NCBI GenBank assembly: GCA_021817145.1
Contig: JAKAVV010000020.1
Span: 1-46,778 of the forward strand
Reading direction: 5' to 3'
Length of the DNA stretch: 46,778 nucleotides
Origin: a bacterium
GTDB lineage: Bacteria > Vulcanimicrobiota > JABDET01
The translations under genes were made by a program, and so were the position numbers. Positions 4,769 to 38,224 of the stretch are shown here, piece by piece; positions within the stretch are counted from its first letter, which is position 1; each line of letters opens with the position of its first letter. The notes beneath the pieces are model-generated. The model was not told where the DNA came from. It was given only the letters and a program-made list of their open reading frames with translations, and did not search any database.

Positions 4769-6154
4769 ATGCTAACTCTTCAATTTTTAGGTGCTGCTGG
4801 AACAGTGACAGGTTCACGGTTTTTGCTGACAGTAGATAATCAGAAGGTTTTAATTGACTGTGGATTGTTTCAGGGAGGGAAAGAATTAAAAGAAAGAAAT
4901 TGGAACCCATTTCCTGTTAATCCTAAAGAAATTCAAGGGGTTTTTGTCACCCATGCTCATCTGGATCATACAGGTTATCTGCCAAAACTGGTTGAACTTG
5001 GATTTAAAGGAAAAATATTTGCAACTCCTTCTACTGTTGATCTGATGGAAATTTTGCTTCGGGATTCCGCTCATCTTCAAGAAGAAGAGGCTGCTTATCA
5101 TAATCGCGGAAAATTTTGCTGTCCTCATGCAAGACCTCTTTACACACTGCAGGAAGCAGAGCAAGCTCTTTACCAAACAAAAGCTGTTCCGTATGGAGAG
5201 TCTTTTAATTTTGGCAATATAAAAGCGGAATTTATTCCTTCAGGTCATATTCTTGGTTCTGCTTTTATTCGGCTAACTGTTCCTCAGAATGGAAATGAAG
5301 TTTCTTTTCTCTTTACAGGGGATATGGGAAGGTATCATTCTCCCATTTTAAAAGATCCTTTTCCTGTTCGAAAAGCTGATTATCTTTTAGTAGAGTCAAC
5401 TTATGGGGATCGAATACACGAGAAAATAACCAGAATCGAAGCCATTCTTCCTGCGGTTCAAGAATGTCTCGCTCTCTCAGGCTGTTTATTGATTCCGGCT
5501 TTTACAGTTGGCAGAACTCAGGAAATTCTTTACACTTTGCGCGAGATGCTGGATCAGAAGAAGATTCCACAGATTCCTGTTTATGTTGACAGTCCTATGG
5601 CAATTGATGTGACCCATCTTTATGCTGAATATCATCAAGAACATGATATGGATATGGAAAAACTTGAAAAAGAGGGGCATTCACCTTTTCGTTTCCCTGG
5701 GCTGCAGTATGTGAGGACTACTCGAGAATCAAAAAGTTTGAATCATCTGAAAGGCCCTTTGATTATTATTTCGGCAAATGGGATGTGCACAGGAGGAAGG
5801 ATTATGCATCATTTGGCAAATCGTCTTCCTGATCCCACAACCATTCTTTTGTTTGTCGGTTATCAAGGAAGTGGAACCCGTGGGCGCGAGTTATTGGAAG
5901 GAGCGAAAAATATTACTATTTTTCATGAAAAAATTGAAGTTAATGCCCGAATAAAGCAGGCGGATAATTTTTCCGCTCATGGGGATTATCCCGAGATTTT
6001 ACAGTGGATTTCAGGATTTGAAAAAGCTCCTTTAAAAACTTTTTTAGTGCATGGAGAACCAGAAAGTACGTCTGCTTTAAAAGGGCATATTTACGAAAAG
6101 TTTCCTGAATGGAAAGTTGAAATCGCTCAGGATATGCAGTCTGTTGAACTTTAA
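4769..6154 (+). CDS. Metallo-beta-lactamase/beta-CASP RNA-processing exonuclease
   Basis: A 461-residue member of the CPSF73/Ysh1-like bacterial metallo-beta-lactamase family, predicted to cut RNA with two zinc ions. The zinc ligands are visible: THAHLDHTGYL near residues 60-70, GHILGSAF, FTGDMGR, and near the end NFSAHGDY and FLVHGEPES. The beta-CASP domain lies between, with ESTYGDR, GRTQEILYTL and SANGMCTGGRI. The start ATG at 4769 has AAGGCGG seven bases upstream. It stands alone after gatB and ends at a shared terminator facing gdhA. The substrate in vivo cannot be read from sequence; a nuclease acting on RNA is what the family suggests. Confidence 0.92.
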   Translation: MLTLQFLGAAGTVTGSRFLLTVDNQKVLIDCGLFQGGKELKERNWNPFPVNPKEIQGVFVTHAHLDHTGYLPKLVELGFKGKIFATPSTVDLMEILLRDSAHLQEEEAAYHNRGKFCCPHARPLYTLQEAEQALYQTKAVPYGESFNFGNIKAEFIPSGHILGSAFIRLTVPQNGNEVSFLFTGDMGRYHSPILKDPFPVRKADYLLVESTYGDRIHEKITRIEAILPAVQECLALSGCLLIPAFTVGRTQEILYTLREMLDQKKIPQIPVYVDSPMAIDVTHLYAEYHQEHDMDMEKLEKEGHSPFRFPGLQYVRTTRESKSLNHLKGPLIIISANGMCTGGRIMHHLANRLPDPTTILLFVGYQGSGTRGRELLEGAKNITIFHEKIEVNARIKQADNFSAHGDYPEILQWISGFEKAPLKTFLVHGEPESTSALKGHIYEKFPEWKVEIAQDMQSVEL

Positions 6155-33117: not shown

Positions 33118-34311
33118 ATGAATATCTCGGCGGATCTTGGAATTCTTGTTGTGATTGCAGGGGTTGGGATTGCTGTAAAATGGCTCAAGTTCCCTTATAC
33201 CCCTGCCCTTGTTTTAGTGGGAACAGTGATCGGGTTTTGGAAAATTTTTCCAACGATTCATTTTACTCCACAGCTTCTTTTTACTGTTCTCCTTCCCCCT
33301 CTTTTGTTTGAAGGCTCACTCAGACTCCCCTGGAAAACGTTAAAAGAGAATGGAATCACAATTTTTCTTTTAGCTGTTCCTGGAGTTCTTCTGACGATTT
33401 TTATCCTTGCTCCTTTGTTCCATTTTTTTCTCCCTTTTTCATTTCCTGTTTCATTTCTCCTGGCAGCTCTTTTAGCTGCAACGGATCCAGTTGCTGTGCT
33501 AAATACTTTTAGAAGTCTGTCTGTGGATGAGAATCTATCCATGTTAATGGAAGGGGAGTCCTTGTTCAATGATGGAACAGCCATGGCCGCTTTTGGAATT
33601 ACGCTTGTGATTCTACAAACAGGAGTTTGGTCCCCAATGGGAAGTTTTATCCAATTTCTCGAGATAAGTTTAGGAGGGTTGATCCTCGGCGGGATTTTAG
33701 GACTGCTGTTTACTCTGATTACACGACATTTAAATGATCATTTAATCGAGATTACCTTGAGCACAATTCTTGCTTATGGAAGTTATCTTTCTGCTGTTGA
33801 AATTCATGTTTCAGGGCTTTTGGCAGTGGTGGGAGCAGGGCTTGTGTATGGAAATGCCGCGGCTCAGTACGGGCTTTCACCTGAAGTCAAGAGACTCCTT
33901 TTTGATGTTTGGGAGTACTTTGGATTTTTGACGAATTCCATTATTTTTCTCTTGATTGGAACCCAGGTCAATTCACGATATATTCTGGGATACTGGAAAC
34001 CTGTTTTTCTGGTTTATCTTTGTTTAATGGCTGCCAGATTTGTGATGGCAGGTTTATCCTGGACTGCGGTCCGATTTTTTCGGCAGAAGTTCCCGGTGAA
34101 ATGGCTCGGGATTGTCTGGTGGGGGGGATTAAGAGGGGCGCTGTCATTGGCTCTAGCAATGGGGATCTCTTCCTCTATTCCGGATCACAAAGCGCTCTTT
34201 TTCATTACTCTTGGAGTCGTGATTTTATTTTTAATGGTAAATGGATTAACCACAGGGGTTTGGGTTCGAGGGCTTGGGTTAAGTTCAGCGAAAACAGTTA
34301 ATCACTCATAA
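33118..34311 (+). CDS. Na+/H+ antiporter (NhaP/CPA1 type)
   Basis: A 397-residue membrane protein of the CPA1 family with about 12 helices. Diagnostic motifs are LFEGSLRL, the ion-binding AATDPVAVLNTFRSL and EGESLFNDGTA, followed by GGLRGALSLALA near the end. It ends soon after the last helix, without the long cytosolic tail of many NhaP proteins. It exchanges sodium (or potassium) for protons. Starts 12 bases after pilD with a weak AGAGAAAG site. Its last 14 bases overlap the convergent transporter gene. Confidence 0.92.
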   Translation: MNISADLGILVVIAGVGIAVKWLKFPYTPALVLVGTVIGFWKIFPTIHFTPQLLFTVLLPPLLFEGSLRLPWKTLKENGITIFLLAVPGVLLTIFILAPLFHFFLPFSFPVSFLLAALLAATDPVAVLNTFRSLSVDENLSMLMEGESLFNDGTAMAAFGITLVILQTGVWSPMGSFIQFLEISLGGLILGGILGLLFTLITRHLNDHLIEITLSTILAYGSYLSAVEIHVSGLLAVVGAGLVYGNAAAQYGLSPEVKRLLFDVWEYFGFLTNSIIFLLIGTQVNSRYILGYWKPVFLVYLCLMAARFVMAGLSWTAVRFFRQKFPVKWLGIVWWGGLRGALSLALAMGISSSIPDHKALFFITLGVVILFLMVNGLTTGVWVRGLGLSSAKTVNHS

Positions 34312-36313
34312 GGAAAAGGTAAGGTCTTTCCTCTTTTTTAGGAAGCCATTCCCAGTATTTGACCAGAATTTCATACACCATGATTCCGATCTCCCCTTCT
34401 CCAAATAAAAGATACTCAAGGGCTTGAATCATCGGGTTTTGGCCTGTTAAATGAAAAAAGATATTGGCAGGTTGAAGGAGTTCGCTCACATAAGCAATCG
34501 TATTCGCGACTGCAACCGCTCCTGTGATTTCAATTAAATAATCCTCCCCAAGCCTGCTGACAGTCATTCTCAAACGGCTTGTAAATTCACTTCTGTCATC
34601 CCGCAAACTCACGTGGAGAAAAGTGAGAGGACCTTGAATTTTGTAATATTTTCGTATCTCTTCCGCTTTTTCTTTTCTTGCGTAGCGGTGGCGATAGTGA
34701 AGAGGGACTAAATTGATTTTTTCCCGTTTCATTTCATCCCATAACACTTTTGATTCTTCCCCTGTTAGAGTCACGCTTTCCACTCTTAGTTCAGTTGCCC
34801 TCAAGTATCGAGAGATGCTGCTTAAAAGAATGATTGTGAGAATGAAAAGGATAGAAATGATCAGCCCATCCGGTCTTTCTCGAATATTTTGGACAAGGGT
34901 GTAAAAAAGGATAAGACTTACAGCCCAGGCATAAAGAGATTTCCAGGGGAACTGCGGTGGTGAACCTTCTCGAGCTTCTTTCCATGTAACCAGAGCTGCT
35001 GCCACAGAAGCAGAAAGGAAAAGAGTTAAAACACCAGTTGCAAAGGCTCCGCTTTGAGCTTCCACACTGGCTCTAAAGATCAATGTGATCAAAATATCCA
35101 CAAGGGTTACTGTAATAACCAGAGGGCGGTAATAGGCGACCCATCGAGGAGCCATTCCGAATCTTGGAAGATAGCGTGAAATTAAACTTAACATTCCCGC
35201 CATGGCTGAAGCTCCTGTAAACCAGAGGATTAAAATGGTCCAGAAATCGTAAAGACTGCCGAAAATATTTCCCAAATAATGATGGGCAAGATAAGCTAAC
35301 GCTCTTCCTGCTGCTGGCCCTCCTGCTTTATAAGCGGAATAAGGGATTAAAAGAGTGGTGGCAAAACTGGTTATCAATAGGAAGAATCCGATTAAAACAG
35401 CAGCAGTGGTTAAAAGTTTTTGTGTGGATTTAATTCTTCCCATGGGAGGTTTGTCAGAGGAATCCAGTGAATCAGAAGGATCCCCTTTAATAAATGGCAT
35501 GACTGAAACCCCTGTTTCAAATCCGCTTAATCCAAGGGCAAGTTGAGGAAAAACAATAAAGGAAGCTAAAAGCAGCTCGGTCCAGCTTCCTCTTAAAACC
35601 AGGAGATGATGCCAATGAGTGATAAGATAGGGATGAATCGCAATTTGATATCCGCAGCGAATAACGACAATCAGAGTTAATAAAAGATAAGGGACAACAA
35701 TGGCTGCAGAAACCCCAATCGCTTCTGTAAAGCCAGCTAAAAAAACCCCAGCCAGAAGAAGAATGAGAGCCAGGGTCAGTTCGATTTGATGATGGTTGAA
35801 GGTGGAATGCAGGTACGGATTTTCAATGATATGTCTGGAAGCATCTGCTGCGGCCAGGGTTGTGGTAATCACGAAATCAGTGCAGGCAAATCCCAGAAGA
35901 ACTAAGACAAAGATTTTTGCTGCCCATCCTGTTAAAAGATGCTCCAGCATAGCAATGGATCCTTGTCCACTGTAAGAATGCCGAGCAACCTGGCAGTAAG
36001 TGGGCAGAATTCCAAACAGGGTTACTGCCACTAAAAAGATAGTGGCAACAGGGGATAAAACTCCTGCTGCAATTAAAGCAAGCCCTGGCTGAAAAGCTAA
36101 ACTTGAAAACAGGTCAACCCCTGTTAACCAGATCACAGAATACCAGGGGTAAGTTTTTGAAGGGGTTTTTGTGTCCTTGTTCTCCTCTTTTCCCAGCATC
36201 CATTTTGCAAAAGCGGTTTTTGGAGGGGCTGTGCTGCGGACAGGAATCGTAGGAAGGGTAAAATTATTTTGCTGCAACTTCGGATTCAAACCCTTTGATT
36301 TTATGAGTCCCAT
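34298..36313 (-). CDS. APC-superfamily transporter with soluble C-terminal domain
   Basis: A 671-residue protein. Residues about 55-510 form about 12 membrane helices with the APC signature WLTGVDLFSSLAFQPGLALI and GYQIAIHP-like segments. Residues about 510-671 are a soluble tail (ESKVLWDEMKREKINLVPLH and following), as in large amino-acid/polyamine or KUP-like permeases. Substrate unknown. Starting at 36313 it overlaps the CDGSH gene by 50 bases with no ribosome-binding site; a Met at 36199 would lose only an unconserved Pro/Thr-rich stretch and may be the real start. Confidence 0.85.
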   Translation of the reverse strand: MGLIKSKGLNPKLQQNNFTLPTIPVRSTAPPKTAFAKWMLGKEENKDTKTPSKTYPWYSVIWLTGVDLFSSLAFQPGLALIAAGVLSPVATIFLVAVTLFGILPTYCQVARHSYSGQGSIAMLEHLLTGWAAKIFVLVLLGFACTDFVITTTLAAADASRHIIENPYLHSTFNHHQIELTLALILLLAGVFLAGFTEAIGVSAAIVVPYLLLTLIVVIRCGYQIAIHPYLITHWHHLLVLRGSWTELLLASFIVFPQLALGLSGFETGVSVMPFIKGDPSDSLDSSDKPPMGRIKSTQKLLTTAAVLIGFFLLITSFATTLLIPYSAYKAGGPAAGRALAYLAHHYLGNIFGSLYDFWTILILWFTGASAMAGMLSLISRYLPRFGMAPRWVAYYRPLVITVTLVDILITLIFRASVEAQSGAFATGVLTLFLSASVAAALVTWKEAREGSPPQFPWKSLYAWAVSLILFYTLVQNIRERPDGLIISILFILTIILLSSISRYLRATELRVESVTLTGEESKVLWDEMKREKINLVPLHYRHRYARKEKAEEIRKYYKIQGPLTFLHVSLRDDRSEFTSRLRMTVSRLGEDYLIEITGAVAVANTIAYVSELLQPANIFFHLTGQNPMIQALEYLLFGEGEIGIMVYEILVKYWEWLPKKEERPYLFLMSD

Positions 36314-36479
36314 CGCAAAAAGGTTTATTGTTTGAATCTCCGCAGCGGCAGAGGGAAACCCAGTTTTTATCTGGTCTTTTTGGTGGGGTAAGGATGTTCC
36401 CCTCAGTATCTTTTAAAGTAAATTCGCCGAAAATCTTCAGGGCTCCATTTTTTCCAACGACAATTTCACATTGACCCAT
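36264..36479 (-). CDS. CDGSH-type iron-sulfur protein
   Basis: A 71-residue protein with the CDGSH (mitoNEET) motif LCRCGDSNNKPFCDGTH near 43-59, which holds a 2Fe-2S cluster through three Cys and one His. The remainder is a short beta region with GNILTPPKRPDKNWVS. Such small proteins store or pass on clusters or electrons. The ribosome-binding site is weak. It overlaps the transporter start by about 50 bases, which suggests they form one transcript. Confidence 0.9.
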   Translation of the reverse strand: MGQCEIVVGKNGALKIFGEFTLKDTEGNILTPPKRPDKNWVSLCRCGDSNNKPFCDGTHKIKGFESEVAAK

Positions 36480-36547
36480 AGCCGTATGTAGAGGATTATC
36501 TTTCGGCGCGATTTTTCCTTTGTATCGGGTTGTTTACATTTTTTTCA

Positions 36548-36576
36548 TTGTATGGTTCTGACAGCTCCTGTAAAAT
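36548..36576 (+). promoter_or_regulatory. Promoter of the first tandem paralogue
   Basis: TTGTAT (36548-36553), 17-base spacer, TAAAAT (36571-36576). A TTGTTTACA element lies exactly 41 bases upstream of the -10 (36530) and recurs at the same distance before the second copy, so it may bind a regulator. Confidence 0.6.
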
Positions 36577-36612
36577 AAAGAGAGTGGAAAAATTTAGAGC
36601 GGAGGTATGAAA

Positions 36613-37338
36613 ATGAATACAATTCAAGGCAGCAGATCAAGAATGATACAGGGGAGCCAATCAGGCGCCGCAGGAAAAGCTCCAGTTACTGCTGGAGATG
36701 CGCAAGCTGCTGGAGGCTCGAATCCAGCAGAACCGAACTGGCAGCCTGCTCCACCAATGAGCCAGCAGCAAGTAGATCATTATGCCAAGGAATTAGCCCC
36801 TTTTAGAATGCCAGGTTGGGATCAGGCGGCTACAGACATGTATAACCTTCGCGTTTACCATAACACCCGTCTCCAAACTGTTGGAACAGATTCACAGGGG
36901 AATATTGATGCTTATGTTCTTTCAGGAACAGTTGTTGATGGAAAATACCCCCCTGGACTTACACATGATGGAGATATGCATTTTGATATTGCTCCAGATC
37001 CTCAATACCCTGCAGATTTAATAAACAGCAAGAATATTCAGAGTGAAAATGGAAAGTTAGTTTGTGAGATTGTCCATGCAGGGCCTACGACACAAGGGGA
37101 TGCTAAACAAAGTGGACAAGGGTATGTGAATCAAGTGCCTCTGCCCAAATTGGGAGAGCATATTTATATTGTTGGTCCCTACGTTTTAGATAAAGATCAT
37201 GGGTGGATGGAATGTCATCCTGTTCTTTATGTTGGTTCAACTCCACCTCCTGCCAATCCACCTGCTTCTCTTTTACAGTCCATTCAAGGCACTAGCAGCT
37301 ATAATGTGAAAAAAGTTCTTCTTAAACCAGAAGGATGA
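36613..37338 (+). CDS. Unknown protein family, tandem copy A
   Basis: A 241-residue protein I do not recognise, with no signal peptide or membrane helix. Residues 1-40 are Gly/Ser/Ala-rich with IQGS repeated (TIQGSRSRMIQGSQSG), and the C-terminus repeats it (SIQGTSSYN). The middle holds a well-conserved domain: MSQQQVDHYAKELAPF, YHNTRLQTVGTD, HDGDMHFDIAPD, KLVCEIVHAGP, HIYIVGPYVLDKDHGWMECH with PV. H-x-G-D-x-H and W-M-E-x-H-P-V could bind a metal. GGAGG lies 7 bases before the second ATG (36613), so I chose that over the ATG at 36607. Confidence 0.8.
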   Translation: MNTIQGSRSRMIQGSQSGAAGKAPVTAGDAQAAGGSNPAEPNWQPAPPMSQQQVDHYAKELAPFRMPGWDQAATDMYNLRVYHNTRLQTVGTDSQGNIDAYVLSGTVVDGKYPPGLTHDGDMHFDIAPDPQYPADLINSKNIQSENGKLVCEIVHAGPTTQGDAKQSGQGYVNQVPLPKLGEHIYIVGPYVLDKDHGWMECHPVLYVGSTPPPANPPASLLQSIQGTSSYNVKKVLLKPEG

Positions 37339-37370
37339 ATTTTTGTGTCGGATTGTTTACAATTTTTTCA

Positions 37371-37399
37371 TTGCTGTATTACCATACTTTTTGTAAAAT
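37371..37399 (+). promoter_or_regulatory. Promoter of the second tandem paralogue
   Basis: TTGCTG (37371-37376), 17-base spacer, TAAAAT (37394-37399). A TTGTTTACA element lies 41 bases upstream of the -10 (37353), as in the first copy, so the gene was duplicated together with its control region. Confidence 0.6.
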
Positions 37400-37435
37400 A
37401 AAGAAAGAGGAAAAATTTAGAGCGGAGGTATGAAA

Positions 37436-38158
37436 ATGAATACAATTCAAGGCAGCAGATCAATCATGATGCAGGGGAGTCAATCAGGGGCCGCAGGAAA
37501 AGCTCTTGTTACTGCTGGTAACAATCCGGCAGTAGGGGATGATAATCCAGCAAACCCGAACTGGAGGCCTGCTCCACCGATGAGCCAGCAGCAAGTAGAT
37601 CACTATGCCAAGGAATTAGCCCCTTTTAGAATGCCAGGTTGGGATCAAGCAGCCACACAAATGTATAATTTGAGGGTTTATCACAATTCTCGTCTCCAGA
37701 CAGTTGGAACAGATTCACAGGGGAACATTGATGCTTATGTGATTTCAGGAACAGTGGATGCTGGTTTCCCTCCCCATTTAGAACCAGATGGAGATATGCA
37801 TTTTAATGTGAAATTAGATCCCCAGTACGCAGCAGATTTAATTAACAGCAAAAATGTCCAGAGTGAAAATGGGGAATTAGTCTGTGAAATTGTGCATGCA
37901 GGACCTGCTACCCAAGGGGATGCTGAACCAGGTGGTCAAGGGTATGTCAACCAAGTAACTCTGCCAAAACCAGGGCAGCACGTTTATCTTGTCGGGCCTT
38001 ATGCCTTAGACAAAGATCATGGCTGGATGGAATGTCATCCTGTTCTTTATGTTGGCTCAACCCCTCCTCCTGCTAATCCGCCGGCTTCTCTTTTGCAGTC
38101 TATTCAAGGGACTAGCGGTTTTAATTCGGCAAAAATGACAACAAAAGCAGGAGGGTGA
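37436..38158 (+). CDS. Unknown protein family, tandem copy B
   Basis: A 240-residue paralogue of the preceding gene, shifted by 823 bases. N-terminal part, central domain and C-terminal IQGT element all align with copy A; differences cluster in the linker (VTAGNNPAVGDDNPANPNW), in HLEPDGDMHFNV and in the last 15 residues. The conserved DGDMHF, EIVHAGP and HGWMECHPVLYVG segments are kept, so the domain is under selection. GGAGG is placed 7 bases before this ATG. It ends before a bidirectional terminator facing the reductase gene. Confidence 0.8.
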   Translation: MNTIQGSRSIMMQGSQSGAAGKALVTAGNNPAVGDDNPANPNWRPAPPMSQQQVDHYAKELAPFRMPGWDQAATQMYNLRVYHNSRLQTVGTDSQGNIDAYVISGTVDAGFPPHLEPDGDMHFNVKLDPQYAADLINSKNVQSENGELVCEIVHAGPATQGDAEPGGQGYVNQVTLPKPGQHVYLVGPYALDKDHGWMECHPVLYVGSTPPPANPPASLLQSIQGTSGFNSAKMTTKAGG

Positions 38159-38194
38159 TTTTATCGCTTACTGGAGATTAGAGATTAAAAACAA

Positions 38195-38224
38195 AGAGAC
38201 CCTCTTTAAAGAGGGTCTCTTTTC
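38195..38224. terminator. Bidirectional intrinsic terminator
   Basis: A perfect inverted repeat with 10-base arms (AGAGACCCTC / GAGGGTCTCT) and a TTTAAA centre at 38195-38220. It is followed by TTTT on the plus strand and, on the other strand, by TTTGTTTTT. It separates the convergent copy B gene and the ribonucleotide reductase gene. Confidence 0.92.

Follow-up and report, generated by a model that had tools for sequence, protein, structure and literature searches.

The window, i.e., the whole stretch of 46,778 nucleotides that was analysed, carries two adjacent genes. In our reading they form an ancient tandem pair whose products are cytosolic OB-fold proteins of a single domain; their twin promoters, together with that of a small conserved protein (about 59 aa), would make up a dedicated regulon of three promoters. 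We give this reading an even chance. A fuller version, in which an undescribed OB-fold family of ligand-binding proteins is represented by a subfunctionalised cytosolic pair with cores that resist gene conversion, and in which a dedicated regulator acting on these three promoters only co-induces the pair and a novel small protein, is possible and is put forward tentatively. Our best guess at the role of each product is a cytosolic OB-fold protein that would bind a ligand or a metal and be produced when needed under the control of a dedicated regulator; fold, binding face and regulator are all predicted. If this is true, the map of OB folds would gain a family named by no profile library searched; should the predicted fold be correct, it is a very common one.

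Both copies are intact open reading frames on the forward strand, spaced by 823 bp and 81% identical, in agreement with the sequence-only reading, which had described them as tandem paralogues. Copy 1 extends from 36613 to 37338 (241 aa, alternative start at 36607) and copy 2 from 37436 to 38158 (240 aa, alternative start at 37430). The same ribosome-binding site, GGAGG, is indeed present before both copies (36601-36605 and 37424-37428, + strand), that of copy 1 lying 1 base from the first ATG and 7 bases from the second. The starts at 36613 and 37436 are preferred because this spacing suits the second ATG better and because the second ATG is the sole start usable across all four homologues; the start originally proposed at 36613 is thus the better one. 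The window's genome is here called G000 and its sister species, the other genome of the genus compared, G001. Both assemblies are split into many contigs, and contig JAJYZB010000010.1 of the sister species (L004) holds the two copies in the same order and with the same neighbours as the window (orthologues at L004:5007-5699 for copy 1 and L004:5893-6624 for copy 2). These neighbours are a divergent transporter gene on one side and a ribonucleotide reductase gene on the other.

A strong bidirectional intrinsic terminator is predicted 3' of copy 2 (38193-38222, + strand), and no comparable terminator was found between the copies in the window's genome. The stop codon of copy 1 is separated from the next promoter element by only about 15 bases, so that read-through from copy 1 into copy 2 is likely in the window. 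In the sister species, a terminator-like hairpin of the first copy is found before the second one (L004, about 5770-5797).

Profile and sequence searches agree with the proposal of an undescribed family: as whole proteins, the two copies fall outside the families of Pfam, NCBIfam, PHROGs and PADLOC as well as the sequences of the PDB, and hence outside any well-studied family of the libraries searched. For both copies, no relevant match to an OB-fold family was obtained in Pfam, NCBIfam or PHROGs at E ≤ 10, no SSB or PriB profile of Pfam or NCBIfam was matched, nor any PDB sequence in a meaningful way, the BOF profile (PF04076) was not among the Pfam matches at E ≤ 10, and no family of the PADLOC anti-phage defence models was reached at E ≤ 1. 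Matches in the libraries and the PDB (MINT_RID at E 0.02, malic enzyme at 0.19 and F1 capsule antigen at 0.75), a ZapA match obtained using the profile (0.023) and a weak Listeria phage match (E 1) were discarded as noise. Similarly, viral contigs and phage records contained no relative, and a literature search for the motif, and for DUF3761 with an OB-fold, found nothing.

Across 149 genomes of the phylum, the core profile recovered no relatives beyond the tandem copies of the two species and a third, non-tandem paralogue on contig 28 of the window's genome (G000:C28:120454-120777). The latter is a protein of 434 aa whose core domain is 48% identical and keeps the same invariant residues; it differs from the pair by a signal peptide or strong hydrophobic N-terminus, by a weak DUF3761-like match at the C-terminus (E 4.6e-4, below the cut-off) and by having none of the promoter matches upstream of it. 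Outside the phylum, a search of plasmids yielded one relative, WP_198854289.1, encoded on plasmid p1 of Alicyclobacillus sp. SO9 (E 9e-7 against copy 1, 2e-17 against the contig-28 protein). Its core is 33% identical, with SGTV, D.D.H, LV.E and DKDHGW.E.HP kept; on the other hand, it looks membrane-anchored, has a Ser/Thr-rich linker and additional C-terminal sequence, and contains neither the central insertion nor the segment specific to the genus (residues about 45-82). Related core domains may be present in many unannotated bacterial proteins.

The central OB-fold-like domain, at 36853-37236 in copy 1 (VYHNTR...HPVLYVG) and at 37676-38056 in copy 2 (both + strand), is common to the contig-28 paralogue and the Alicyclobacillus protein. 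Alignments, together with significant profile and BLAST matches, define the core-domain family by the invariant series SGTV ... D.D.H ... G.LV.E ... P..G.H ... DKDHGW.E.HP. Its signature DxDxH / E / DKDHGWxExHP is invariant in the six sequences aligned (four genus proteins, the contig-28 paralogue and the Alicyclobacillus protein), including, among others, D121, D123, H125, E154, D195, D197, H198, W200, E202, H204 and P205 (copy 1, MKM numbering). The motifs DGDMHF, EIVHAGP and HGWMECHPV, noticed from the first in both copies, are present in each. The IQGS/T elements said to flank the domain occur at both ends in the proteins of the window and the C-terminal SIQGTS is conserved; the N-terminal ones, however, are replaced in the sister species by IQKN and IIES, and IQGS flanks are, on these sequences, not a conserved feature. 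None of the four tandem proteins has a hydrophobic N-terminal segment. The absence of a signal peptide is equally apparent from the best 15-residue hydropathy within the first 60 residues, which is 0.19 and 0.48 in the two copies versus 2.57 in the secreted third paralogue.

AlphaFold models were built from five sequences per alignment, the plasmid protein being left out, and each tandem protein would begin with a disordered tail, continue through a short stretch of helix (residues about 45-82) and the OB domain, and end in a C-terminal tail. The strand order of the model, b1-b2-(a)-b3-b4-b5, fits an OB fold at a mean pLDDT of only 50 (whole copy 1) to 62 (core of the contig-28 protein). Nearly all top Foldseek and VIA matches are OB folds, i.e., SSB, PriB, RPA, the anticodon domains of Lys/Asp/AsnRS, RecO and the OB domain of PolC. 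The best VIA match has a Z score of 8.2 (rmsd 3.3 over 84 aligned residues), a Z near 8 being within the range given by common arrangements, and no Foldseek match had an E below 0.001. On these low-confidence models, the central domain is probably an OB fold. With the superfamily of SSB, PriB, RPA and the anticodon-binding domains of class II aminoacyl-tRNA synthetases it shares the predicted strand order and barrel; it differs by the lack of any sequence match, by an acidic and histidine signature without known function and by a long, poorly modelled loop (about residues 157-180) preceding strand 4. The BOF or YgiW-YdeI family (PF04076) also consists, as far as its descriptions go, of small bacterial OB-fold proteins without known catalytic role, and close to this group stands a Vibrio protein reported to be inducible by stress (PMC5636140; PMC6370654). 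The BOF proteins described are periplasmic, whereas the tandem pair is cytosolic and shows no sequence match to BOF.

A fold of this kind could bind single-stranded nucleic acid in the manner of SSB or PriB, and the pair would then encode accessory ssDNA- or RNA-binding proteins, plausibly tied to ribonucleotide reductase. SSB, PriB, RPA and RecO are indeed among the best structural matches, the proteins are cytosolic and the reductase gene adjoins the pair in both species. However, OB folds match each other irrespective of ligand, and the reductase gene is convergent with the pair and lies beyond a terminator. Moreover, the invariant residues are of the acidic and histidine kind, not of the basic and aromatic one. 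The proteins themselves are acidic (pI 5.3-5.7), and the nearest relatives beyond the pair are secreted or membrane-anchored. Given this acidic signature and these relatives, nucleic-acid binding is less likely, and we regard it as quite improbable.

On the model, strand 2 would carry DxDxH and strand 3 the E, with DKDHGWxExH around strands 4-5; given the alternation of residues along strands 2 and 5, one face could hold several of the invariant ones. The proposed OB-fold reading takes the invariant Asp, His and Glu as a predicted ligand- or metal-binding face and, if true, would make the conserved acidic and histidine signature a handle for a direct ligand search. A stronger claim would be that the proteins are enzymes or tight metal-binding proteins, with Asp121, Asp123, His125, Glu154, Asp195, Asp197, His198, Glu202 and His204 of copy 1 as the catalytic or metal site. 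The invariance of these nine residues in 6/6 sequences, even among distant members at 31-42% identity, speaks for it, whereas no catalytic family was matched and a low-confidence model cannot establish that the residues cluster, their invariance being possibly structural; we deem this claim unlikely.

That both copies probably work, as first proposed, is supported by their retention in the sister species without frame disruption and by the ratio of silent to changing substitutions, which had been named as a check. Between the two species, copy 1 orthologues show a dN of 0.143 and a dS of 0.94, and copy 2 orthologues a dN of 0.087 and a dS of 1.09 (NG86), i.e., a dN/dS of about 0.15 and 0.08, respectively; a pseudogene was thus rejected, no disruption being present in either species. 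Within the core, residues changed at 16 of 132 codons between copy 1 orthologues versus 3 of 132 in copy 2. The low dN/dS and these core changes indicate that both copies are under strong purifying selection, with copy 2 the more constrained, and the two cores may differ slightly in specificity.

The statement that drift is concentrated in linkers holds between orthologues but fails between the two copies, where 25/132 core and 21/110 flank codons differ (about 19% each). The copies form a mosaic. Of the informative sites, 32 support grouping by paralogue and 24 grouping by species; the core has 31 of the former and 6 of the latter, the flanks 1 and 18 (Fisher test, p 1e-8; runs test, p 3e-5). 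As core sites mostly group by copy, the duplication predates the split of the two species. The stretches that are near-identical between copies are the leaders and N-termini in the window's genome and the C-termini and 3' flanks in the sister species, probably because later gene conversion has homogenised them. The pattern suggests that selection holds the two cores apart. The mosaic is a clear case of tandem copies that are distinct in the middle with homogenised ends.

Before both copies, a TTG-N17-TAAAAT promoter is found at a fixed distance from the upstream element TTGTTTACA, as had been claimed. In copy 1, the element TTTACATTTTTTTCATTG (36533-36550, + strand) ends with the TTG that begins the -35 (36548-36553) and the -10 TAAAAT follows 17 bases past the -35 (36571-36576). 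Similarly, TTTACAATTTTTTCATTG of copy 2 (37356-37373, + strand) leads to a -35 at 37371-37376 and, 17 bases further, to a -10 TAAAAT at 37394-37399. Alignment of the promoters gives a 44-bp pattern, TTTACA-n-TTTTTTCATTG-N18-TGTAnnAT, of which G000 and G001 each have exactly three perfect sites. Even with one mismatch allowed, none of 145 further genomes from the phylum contains it, and the reversed control pattern had no match. The element alone is expected 0.002 times per genome from base composition, versus three observed.

In both species, the third site is followed by a small ORF (about 59 codons) that lies between trxA and accC. This ORF has its own ribosome-binding site, is 46% identical between species and matches no known family. 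The ORF (G000:C7:11501-11677, - strand, L015; G001:C12:26986-27156, + strand) starts with MY.FDSS.DYQS.FP... The description of the pair as duplicated with its promoter is right as to the promoter before both copies and incomplete as to the third gene, which is unrelated; a promoter shared only through recent duplication is ruled out by this gene. Because an unrelated gene carries the same promoter, we take the latter above all as the signature of a regulon of three promoters under selection, and these sequences suggest that the tandem pair and the small gene form a small, dedicated, putative regulon. One activator or sigma factor would then induce all three genes under one condition, although three sites make for a small regulon.

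The element could alternatively be an A-tract UP element rather than a regulator site, in which case the three genes would just have strong constitutive promoters. UP elements are bound by the RNA polymerase alpha subunit just upstream of the -35, and the T-run of the element lies directly upstream of the -35, at about that place. Against this, all 17 specified bases, TTTACA and CA included, are invariant in six promoters of two species while the rest of the upstream regions has diverged. Likewise, allowing up to three mismatches adds one site in the window's genome and none in the sister species, whereas a gradation of ever weaker sites would be expected of plain UP elements. We think a plain UP element improbable and keep the regulon as the preferred reading; its element, confined to three promoters, offers a small handle with sharp limits, and of the whole proposal the promoter shared by three genes lends itself best to testing.

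Some neighbouring genes complete the description. Divergent from copy 1, a CDGSH iron-sulphur protein of 71 aa is encoded at 36264-36479 (- strand; Pfam E 5e-16). A multi-pass membrane protein of 671 aa (34298-36313, - strand), kept in the sister species and without a Pfam match at E 0.001, is by its looks an amino-acid/APC-type transporter. On contig 28, the gene adjoining the third paralogue (L016:6844-7866, - strand) encodes a secreted-looking protein of 340 aa that mostly consists of tandem repeats of the type DAKGNPRAxFxLGQHGSPMLGM.
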